Below are positions 3,001-5,850 of a stretch of DNA of 64,000 nt, piece after piece. The notes under the pieces were generated by a model, which was given only the letters and a program-made list of their open reading frames with translations, did not search any database and had not been told where the DNA came from. The stretch's first letter is position 1. The number at the start of each line of letters is the position of its first letter. The stretch covers positions 1 to 64,000 of the forward strand of contig NZ_JAPZVN010000030.1 of NCBI RefSeq assembly GCF_027533845.1. The letters run 5' to 3'. This DNA comes from Streptomyces sp. RPT161 (lineage in GTDB: Bacteria; Actinomycetota; Actinomycetes; Streptomycetales; Streptomycetaceae). Made by a program: the position numbers and the translations under genes.

Positions 3001-5850
3001 GGACAGCACGCCGTCCGGACCGAGTTCGATGAACGTGGTGACGCCCTGGTCATCCAACGTCCGTACGCCGTCGAGGAATCGGACGGCTTCCCGGACGTGC
3101 CGCACCCAGTACTCGGGCGAGCACAGCTGCTCGGCGGTGGCGGTGGTTCCGGTGAGGGTGGAGACGATGGGGATGCGCGGCGGCTGGTACTCCAGCACCT
3201 GTGCCACACGGCGGAACTCGGCGAGCATGCCGTCCATGTGCGGCGAGTGGAAGGCGTGACTGACCGTGAGGCGCTTGGTCCTGCGGCCCTGTGCCTCGAA
3301 GTGCGCGGCGATGTCCAGCGCCGCGTCCTCGTCGCCCGCGATCACGGTCGACGTGGGACCGTTGATGGCGGCGATGTTGACCCGGTCGGTCAGCAGTGGG
3401 CCGACCTCGTCCTCGGATGCCTCGATGGCCACCATGGCGCCGCCGCCCGGCAGTTCCTGCATCAACCGGCCGCGGGCGGCGACCAGTGCGCAGGCGTCCT
3501 CCAGCGAGAGCACGCCCGCCACGTGGGCGGCGGCCAGCTCGCCGATCGAGTGGCCGGTCAGTACGTCCGGCCGCACTCCCCAGGACTCCAGCAGCCGGAA
3601 CAGCGCAACTTCGACGGCGAACAGCGCGGGCTGGGTGTAGGCGGTCTGGTCGAGCGGTTCGGGGTTGTCGCCGAACAGCACGTCGAGCAGGGGCAGTTCG
3701 AGGTGCTCGTCCAGGTACCAGCAGGCGTCGTCCAGAGCGTCGGCGAACACCGGGTAGTTGTCGTACAACTCCCGTCCCATGCCGAGGCGTTGGCTGCCCT
3801 GGCCGGTGAACAGGAACGCGGTGCGGCCCGCTACGGGCGCGCCGGTCACGACGGACGGCGTCGGCGTGCCGTCGGCGAGGGCGCGCAGGGCGTCGAGGAA
3901 GGCGGGGCGTTCGTCCGCGACGAGCACCGCGCGCTGCTCGAAGGTGGCCCGGGTGGTGGCCAGCGAGAAGCCGATGTCGACGGTGCGGTGCCCCGGCTCG
4001 GCGGCGAGTCGGGCGTGCAGCAGCTCGGCCTGGGCGCGCAGGGCGGCCGGGGTCTTCGCCGACAGCACCCAGGGCAGTACGGCGGGTGGCGCGGCCGGTG
4101 CGGTCTGCTCCGGGGTCTCCGTGTCGTCGGTGGGGGCCTGCTCGATGATGGCGTGGGCGTTGGTGCCGCTCATGCCGAACGAGGACACACCGGCCCTGCG
4201 CGCCCGGCCGGTGTCCGGCCAGTCGCGGCTCTCGGTGAGCAGTTCGACGGCGCCCGCGGTCCAGTCGACGTGCGGGGTCGGCTCGTCGATGTGCAGCGAG
4301 CGGGGCAGTACACCGTCCCGCATCGCCATCACCATCTTGATGACTCCGGCGACGCCGGCGGCGGCCTGGGTGTGGCCGATGTTGGACTTCAGCGAGCCCA
4401 GCCACAGCGGCTGGTCGTCGGGGCGGTGCTGGCCGTAGGTGGCGATCAGCGCCTGCGCCTCGATGGGGTCGCCGAGGCGGGTGCCGGTGCCGTGGGCCTC
4501 GACCACGTCCACATCGGCGGCGGCCAGACCGGCGTTGGCCAACGCCTGGCGGATGACACGCTGTTGGGAGGGACCGCTGGGAGCGGTAAGGCCGTTGCTG
4601 GCGCCGTCCTGGTTGATGGCGGTGCCGCGGACGATGGCCAGCACCGGGTGGCCGTTGCGCCGTGCGTCGGACAGCCGCTCGACCAGCAGCATTCCGGCGC
4701 CCTCGCCCCAGGCGGTGCCGTCGGCGGCGGCGGCGAACGGCTTGCAGCGGCCGTCGGGGGCCAGGCCGCGCTGGCGGCTGAAGGCGATGAACGAGCCGGG
4801 GTTGGCCATGACCGCCACTCCACCGGCGAGCGCCATGGAGCACTCCCCGCTGCGCAGCGCCTGTACGGCCAGGTGCAGCGCGGCCAGTGAGGAGGAGCAG
4901 GCGGTGTCGACGGTGACGGTGGGGCCCTCGAAGCCGAAGGTGTAGGCGATGCGGCCGGAGGCGACGCTGGCCGCGTTGCCGGTGACCAGATAGCCCTCGA
5001 AACCCTCTTCCGCCTCGTGCAGGCGCGGGCCGTAGTCCTGGGTCTCCTGGCCCACGAAAACGCCGATCTGGCCGCCGCGGAAATGCGCGGGGTCGATTCC
5101 GGCGCGTTCGAACGCTTCCCAGGAGGTTTCCAGCAGCAGCCGCTGCTGCGGATCCATGGCGAGTGCCTCGCGCGGTGAAATTCCGAAGAACGCCGGGTCG
5201 AACTGGTCGGCGTCATGTAGGAATCCGCCCTCGCGGGCATAACTGGTGCCCGGCCGGTCCGGGTCCGGGTCATAGAGTCCGGCGAGGTCCCAGCCGCGGC
5301 CGGACGGGAATTCGGTGATGGCGTCGACGCCGCCCAGCGCGATGTTCCACAGGTCTTCGGGGGACCGTACGTCGCCGGGGTAGCGGCAGCCCATGCCGAC
5401 GATGGCGATGGGCTCGTCGTCGGCGAAGGCGGTGGCCACCACAGGAAGCGTGTCGTCCGCGGTCAGGCCGAGGATCTCGGCGCGAAGTTGGCGGGCCAGC
5501 GCGACGGGGGTCGGGTAGTCGAAGGCGAGGGTCACCGGCAGCCTCAGTCCGGTGCCCGCGGTGAGTCGGCTGTGCAGGTCGACCGCGGCGAGCGAGTCGA
5601 ATCCCAGCTCAAGGAACGGGCGGTGGGGGTCGAGGTGTTCCGGTGCCGAGTCACGCAGCGCGGCGCGGACCAGGGTGCCCAGCCAGTCGAGCAGAGCCTG
5701 TTCCTGCTCGTCCGCGGGCAGTTCGGCGAGCCGCTGCCGCCAGGACGAGACATCGGCGGCGGCGTCCGCCGCCGTGTCGGGACCCGCTACGTCAGGACCC
5801 AAGCCCTTCACGTCGCTGCTTTCGGGCGTGAAATCCTCGGATCCACTCAT
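1..5850 (-). CDS. Modular type I polyketide synthase, first assembly-line protein (partial, 3' end beyond left edge)
   Basis: This is a multidomain polyketide synthase that builds a polyketide from acyl-CoA units. The ATG at 5850 has GGAG seven bases upstream, and the frame stays open for 1950 codons to the window edge. Domain order is: ACP (residues about 30-110, LGFDSL, phosphopantetheine Ser86); KS1 (about 142-565, DTACSSS with Cys318, EAHGTGT and NIGHT histidines); AT (GHSIGE Ser768, HAFH motif, which predicts malonyl-CoA); KR (GGTGALG near 1296, LDD motif of B-type KRs, NYAAAN Tyr1438); ACP1 (GFDSL Ser1608); KS2 (from about 1670, Cys1842), cut by the edge. The KS1 active site is Cys, not the Gln of a decarboxylating loading KS. 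No DH or ER fits between AT and KR. No docking helix is evident at the N-terminus. An ACP-only loading module implies that a separate acyltransferase or ligase loads the starter. The family and domains are seen directly; the product is unknown. Confidence 0.97.

Follow-up and report, generated by a model that had tools for sequence, protein, structure and literature searches.

A lone N-terminal ACP as the probable loading module of a neotetrafibricin-type polyketide synthase in Streptomyces sp. RPT161

The DNA studied here (the window) comprises the first 64,000 nucleotides of contig C64, which measures 66,994 bases, in the 7.69-Mb genome of Streptomyces sp. RPT161, assembled in 139 contigs. 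It begins with the 5' part of a modular polyketide synthase (PKS) gene, PKS I, lying in a reverse-strand open reading frame (ORF; 1..5853) that is open to the contig edge, without a stop codon (Table 1). As a preliminary description of this DNA had stated, the protein opens with an ACP directly followed by a KS, and both residues named there, Ser86 and Cys318, were confirmed by counting from the ATG at 5850, as for all residue numbers of PKS I. The domain scan bore out the further statement that no acyltransferase (AT), KSQ domain or ligase stands ahead of or beside this lone ACP. An in-frame TAA lies five codons 5' of the ATG, and the glycosyltransferase gene upstream of PKS I is divergent, so that no hidden upstream AT can belong to this protein.

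Table 1. Features in the first part of the window, with counterparts in the Inha-neotetrafibricin (I-NTF) cluster
Feature	Position	Strand	Remarks
PKS I, 5' part	1..5850	-	Loading ACP-KS-AT-KR-ACP-KS; runs leftward off the contig end
KS of module 2	1..843	-	Cut by the contig end; 95% identity to S. ferralitis module 2 KS
In-line ACP of module 1	904..1143	-	
KR of module 1	1429..1989	-	
AT of module 1	2869..3825	-	
KS of extension module 1	4138..5415	-	Intact Cys318 (DTACSSS)
Loading ACP	5470..5709	-	Lone, N-terminal; LGFDSL; Ser86 codon 5595-5593
EryCIII-like glycosyltransferase	6077..7198	+	373 aa; counterpart I-NTF H
bPH_2 protein	7301..8863	-	520 aa; I-NTF G
bPH_2 protein	8860..9351	-	163 aa; I-NTF F
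Sensor kinase	10146..11438	+	430 aa as called; I-NTF D, 417 aa
ORF with response regulator	11242..12075	+	I-NTF C, 210 aa; true start further in
Large LuxR-family regulator	12149..14998	-	949 aa as called; I-NTF B, 920 aa
Thioesterase	15184..16068	-	294 aa as called; I-NTF A, 234 aa

The I-NTF cluster was described in Streptomyces rubrisoli Inha501 (PMC8312574, PMC9421130), and its gene H is by name a rhamnose glycosylation enzyme in PMC9421130. The likeness to it extends over both flanks of the PKS genes, the second flank being found on another contig of the same genome (C76, 19.8 kb). The gene order A-H, PKS I-IX and I-W is as in I-NTF, all genes except E and V having been compared, and the shared features include nine PKS proteins, the rhamnose genes, the glycosyltransferase, the AT, a ligase, an amine oxidase, a phosphopantetheinyl transferase, a metallophosphoesterase and an amidinohydrolase. 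Many protein sizes are identical; those given in Table 2 of PMC8312574 agree exactly on the window side (163, 520 and 373 aa) and on the C76 side (298, 349, 210, 328, 467, 544 and 303 aa), and some others differ by the choice of start, among them the AT (340 aa here, 317 aa in PMC8312574). According to the latter source a PKS knock-out led to the loss of a neotetrafibricin-like compound, and PMC9421130 reports expression of the cluster from a BAC, with 4-guanidinobutyric acid drawn as the start unit in the legend of its Fig. 2. The two cases differ in the species and in the fragmented state of the window's genome.

Both ends of the cluster are found together in Streptantibioticus ferralitis, where the loading ACP (259,934) and the AT (393,979) lie on one contig with nine PKS proteins between them, in a cluster of about 134 kb with 26 extension modules. 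The first 146 aa of PKS I show 86% identity to the S. ferralitis orthologue and 85% to that of S. rubrisoli, and the same ACP opens both. The tested genes of the window side and of the C76 side stand in the same order in S. ferralitis and in S. rubrisoli, the two cluster ends lying on separate contigs in the latter. PKS fragments of the window's genome were mapped to the S. ferralitis modules on contigs C64, C77, C84, C89, C70, C91, C72 and C76; the best match was the expected domain for all 18 KS and all 19 ACP fragments. For many AT fragments, and for some KR and DH fragments, a module other than the expected one scored best, and for 8 of the 26 modules the assembly yielded no KS domain. C76 is tied to the window contig because both ends lie on one contig in S. 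ferralitis and because of this synteny. C64, C76 and a third contig, C66, are linked through the synteny of relatives. The preliminary description had placed a discrete acyltransferase and starter-making genes to the left of the window, and a VinK-family AT, a ligase and an amine oxidase do occur on C76, put on that side by the S. ferralitis synteny; they sit at the opposite end of the PKS genes from the loading ACP, about 134 kb off in S. ferralitis.

Split modules exist elsewhere, and the lone ACP could be the end of such a module, fed by an upstream PKS protein. In S. ferralitis, however, a scan of the 40 kb preceding PKS I found no PKS domain. Read by eye, a charged N-terminal helix, which we take to be of the docking type, precedes the KS of proteins P2-P9 of the S. 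ferralitis PKS and is absent from P1, in line with the absence of a docking helix noted earlier. The lone ACP moreover groups with loading ACPs in the tree described below, and we regard the chance of a split module as practically negligible. An upstream AT or PKS partner of PKS I, either of which would have spoken against the preliminary description, was rejected on the closed frame, the upstream region of S. ferralitis and the missing helix of P1. What was found instead is the set of features expected of an ACP-only module loaded in trans, with an ACP followed by a KS, no upstream PKS partner or docking helix in S. ferralitis, and a discrete VinK-family AT in the cluster.

On C76 the end of the PKS, with a thioesterase (TE) domain, is adjoined by this AT; both had been proposed as objects of a search leftwards. 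The contig also bears a two-gene ABC transporter, rmlD, rmlC, rmlA and rmlB, a second thioesterase, a 467-aa AMP-ligase, a 544-aa FAD amine oxidase, a phosphopantetheinyl transferase, a metallophosphoesterase and a LuxR-family regulator. An aminomutase or ATP-grasp ligase, the other objects of that search, was not among the families matched by the scanned C76 ORFs, and neither was a PLP enzyme, a second adenylation enzyme, an aminopeptidase, an amidohydrolase or a discrete ACP, the scan covering ORFs of at least about 150 aa, so that a discrete ACP, if small, could have escaped it. The metallophosphoesterase gene (L001:15394-16305) stays near the amine oxidase gene in a number of related clusters. 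C66 carries an Arginase-family gene with ureohydrolase motifs, a candidate amidinohydrolase, with 88% identity to a copy in S. ferralitis and 96% to one in S. rubrisoli, both just beyond the cassette. The window has an Arginase-family gene of its own at 41629-42612, with 83% identity to this candidate; its neighbours encode a TPP enzyme and a sodium:solute symporter.

The C76 AT matches the Pfam family VinK_C (5.7e-27), the sole such match in the genome, and keeps the Ser and His in the motifs GPSFG and RPPVHA. Its best PDB match is 5czc (1e-99), which we take to be VinK; that of the lone ACP is 8h6s_C (1.1e-25), presumably the loading ACP VinP1, in an entry that also contains a VinK-like chain. 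A phylogeny had been proposed for the Ser86 ACP. In a tree of 57 ACPs, one branch (98/93) separates 21 ACPs that stand first in their proteins (the window's and 20 others) from 36 in-line ones; the tree was built on 80 columns, with many inner forks unresolved and the S. rubrisoli loading ACP left out. Two control ACPs, each taken from the first module of another PKS that the genome encodes, fall outside the lone-ACP group.

Of 147 genomes sampled from the order, 25 have a VinK_C match, the window's genome among them. At 18 of 26 other VinK-like loci an ACP-first PKS lies within 20 kb of the AT, and for 3 more it lies elsewhere in the genome; none was found for the other five (G068, G105, G114 and the second loci of G023 and G029). 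The AT of G105 is on a 17-kb contig, and the one ACP match of that genome showed just a KS in its stretch. At E 1e-25 no ACP match was obtained in G068, nor in G114, where the oxidase cassette is present, and in G023 and G029 an ACP-first PKS stands beside the other AT locus of each genome. We suggest that VinK-type loading can usefully be searched for by way of ACP-first PKSs.

The preliminary description had offered two precedents for ACP-only loading, beta-amino-acid and guanidinobutyryl priming. In the first, as in vicenistatin biosynthesis, the VinK-like AT would move a protected beta-aminoacyl dipeptide from a discrete ACP to the lone ACP, and both the AT and the loading ACP found here resemble the vicenistatin pair. 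In that system a discrete AT of the same family likewise acts on the N-terminal loading ACP of the first PKS (PMC11284099; PDB 5czc, 8h6s), but the donor is a dipeptidyl discrete ACP, the starter a beta-amino acid and the product a macrolactam (PMC11284099). The corresponding gene set (a discrete ACP, two adenylation enzymes, an amidohydrolase and beta-amino acid genes) was not encountered among the scanned C76 ORFs, which hold a single AMP-ligase together with an amine oxidase and, as noted, neither a PLP enzyme nor an aminopeptidase. Across the 26 surveyed loci, high-scoring ligase matches occur at five, four of them with the oxidase; at the other 21 the ligase score stays at or below 151 bits, and the oxidase is not matched. 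Vicenistatin-type priming is thus extremely improbable here. The second precedent fits better, as the amine oxidase, the ligase and the amidinohydrolase candidate support a cassette of the guanidinobutyryl type rather than the beta-amino-acid type.

Amine oxidases with 79-80% identity to the C76 enzyme occur in Kitasatospora mediocidica, Streptomyces samsunensis, S. griseocarneus and S. olivoreticuli. A VinK-like AT was found in the oxidase flank of all four and a ligase match in three, K. mediocidica having none in the 10-kb flanks. S. naganishii, S. barringtoniae, S. anandii and S. cellostaticus have the whole cassette, with rmlABCD. The best PDB match of the C76 oxidase is an L-amino acid oxidase/monooxygenase (1.5e-215), the nearest solved structure, whose preference we take to be for lysine; arginine, the substrate that we infer, is therefore assigned by homology.

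If lysine were oxidized instead, the starter would be 5-aminopentanoyl, and this would agree with the best PDB match and with Asp at chain position 258, which is kept in all rows of the oxidase alignment. The closest relatives of the enzyme, however, lie in guanidinobutyryl-type clusters, the producers of which are in part presumed from general knowledge. In the 34 PKS-labelled rows, Cys274 of the solved enzyme gives way to Ala 32 times and to Thr twice, and in all 47 others to Ala, so that this position is unlike the lysine enzyme and yet does not separate starter enzymes from the rest. Position 439 is Asn in all 34 PKS-labelled rows and Cys in 35, Ala in 8 and Asn in 4 of the 47 others, by an imprecise division made by hand from flank matches. 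Among the 47, the four rows with Asn439 (L064, L068, L075 and L090) may be starter enzymes too; ligase matches were found in the flanks of L064 and L075, and regulator or thioesterase matches in those of L064, L068 and L090, not L075. Also against lysine stand the amidinohydrolase candidate and the start unit drawn for the published cluster (PMC9421130), and a search of the available literature for lysine 2-monooxygenase or 5-aminopentanoyl with polyketide gave no match. A lysine-derived starter is accordingly highly improbable. Leads on gargantulide yielded nothing useful. Another copy of the amine oxidase gene (G000:C63:318272-319891, L140; 62% identical) lies away from the cluster, possibly for arginine catabolism.

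In the PDB the AMP-ligase matches chains of NRPS and salicylate-AMP adenylation enzymes best and CoA ligases next, and such an enzyme could load the lone ACP directly, the VinK-like AT being otherwise employed, for example in clearing misprimed ACPs. For azalomycin, however, 4-guanidinobutyrate is described as a CoA ester that a dedicated AT puts on the loading ACP (PMC5082578); VinK, too, is described as passing its cargo to a loading ACP (PMC11284099). Direct loading by the ligase is hence very unlikely.

Taken with the arginine monooxygenase-like amine oxidase (substrate by homology) and the acyl ligase, both present in the cluster, these data indicate that the lone ACP is very probably the loading module of PKS I in a giant linear polyene assembly line of the neotetrafibricin type, primed with 4-guanidinobutyryl via the VinK-like AT. 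The FAD amine oxidase would convert arginine to 4-guanidinobutyramide, a putative amidase would give 4-guanidinobutyrate, and the AMP-ligase would form its CoA ester. In the case of azalomycin, a heterologous host supplied with 4-guanidinobutyramide formed the product (PMC5082578). The VinK-family AT would then transfer the acyl group to Ser86, from which KS1 (Cys318) would accept it into module 1, and after extension the chain would be released by the TE. Late steps would be the removal of the amidine by an amidinohydrolase and the addition of rhamnose by a glycosyltransferase. Read from sequence here are the solitary ACP, the occurrence of these genes and where they lie in S. ferralitis, as well as orthology and gene order, and every chemical step and the starter identity come from inference or published work, in which the arginine route, a dedicated AT and late removal of the amidine are described. 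The predicted product is a rhamnosylated linear amino polyene of an antifungal class, so that sequence leads to a starter unit, a loader and a product class for this assembly line, and the odd PKS start in the window would be a known design in another species.

A guanidinobutyrate PKS that opens with a loading ACP is described in PMC8944477. The linear polyenes mediomycin/clethramycin and ECO-02301 share the guanidinobutyryl starter route (PMC5704753, PMC8944477), and the med/cle PKS is likewise giant and made of nine proteins, but has 27 extension modules and is accompanied by a sulfotransferase (PMC5704753, PMC8944477). The marginolactones azalomycin and desertomycin also start from 4-guanidinobutyryl, azalomycin with a dedicated AT acting on a loading ACP, but are macrolactones, and azalomycin is built in 20 cycles by 19 extension modules (PMC4737276, PMC5082578). 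K. mediocidica shares a lone loading ACP (65% identical), the amine oxidase and the VinK-like AT, and differs in that no rml gene was matched in its flank. We take this strain to be the mediomycin producer.

The AT of module 1 in S. ferralitis has the motif HAFH, which we read as malonyl-type, and three extension modules have a YASH-type AT, presumably for methylmalonyl. The 26 extension modules compare with 27 modules stated for I-NTF (PMC9421130), a count that may include the loading module. PKS I and II measure 9792 and 9298 aa in Table 2 of PMC8312574 and 8082 and 3422 aa in S. ferralitis, the published sizes being weak evidence because a PKS II of 9298 aa does not fit 27 modules. By arithmetic, the C67 formula of PMC8312574 minus rhamnose leaves C61, or C4 + 27 x 2 + three methyls, and 26 modules would give C59. 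Module 2 of S. rubrisoli DSM 42083 (region L044, G002:C26, 1-10373) looks chimeric, its KS resembling that of S. ferralitis module 2 and its AT-DH-KR-ACP being most like module 3, with a KR that scored best against other modules. The difference in count may stem from a genuine change in the modules, from repeated use of one module or from the collapse of a short-read assembly. A literature search for Streptantibioticus with polyketide synthase returned nothing beyond a paper on reclassification. The early PKS I modules seem to differ between this S. rubrisoli region and S. ferralitis (L038-L040).

A broader reading, which we hold to be doubtful, is that VinK-type ATs and ACP-first loading ACPs form a single co-inherited device of one origin, whose cargo has switched between protected beta-amino acids and 4-guanidinobutyrate, and that the PKS served by this device differs within Streptantibioticus by one entire early module, in which case S. 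ferralitis, and perhaps the species of the window, would make a neotetrafibricin two carbons shorter.

Loading from another PKS of the genome was rejected as well. The modular PKS on contig C63 (L013:2-4480) has its own protein opening KS-AT-ACP-KS, the ACP of which lies outside the lone-ACP group in the tree; the first KS of this protein gave no match to the Cys motif used. Owing to its lower KS scores, the C63 PKS has no place in the module mapping. PKS fragments with a similarly lower KS score occur on C82, C83 and C92 and are perhaps part of the same PKS.
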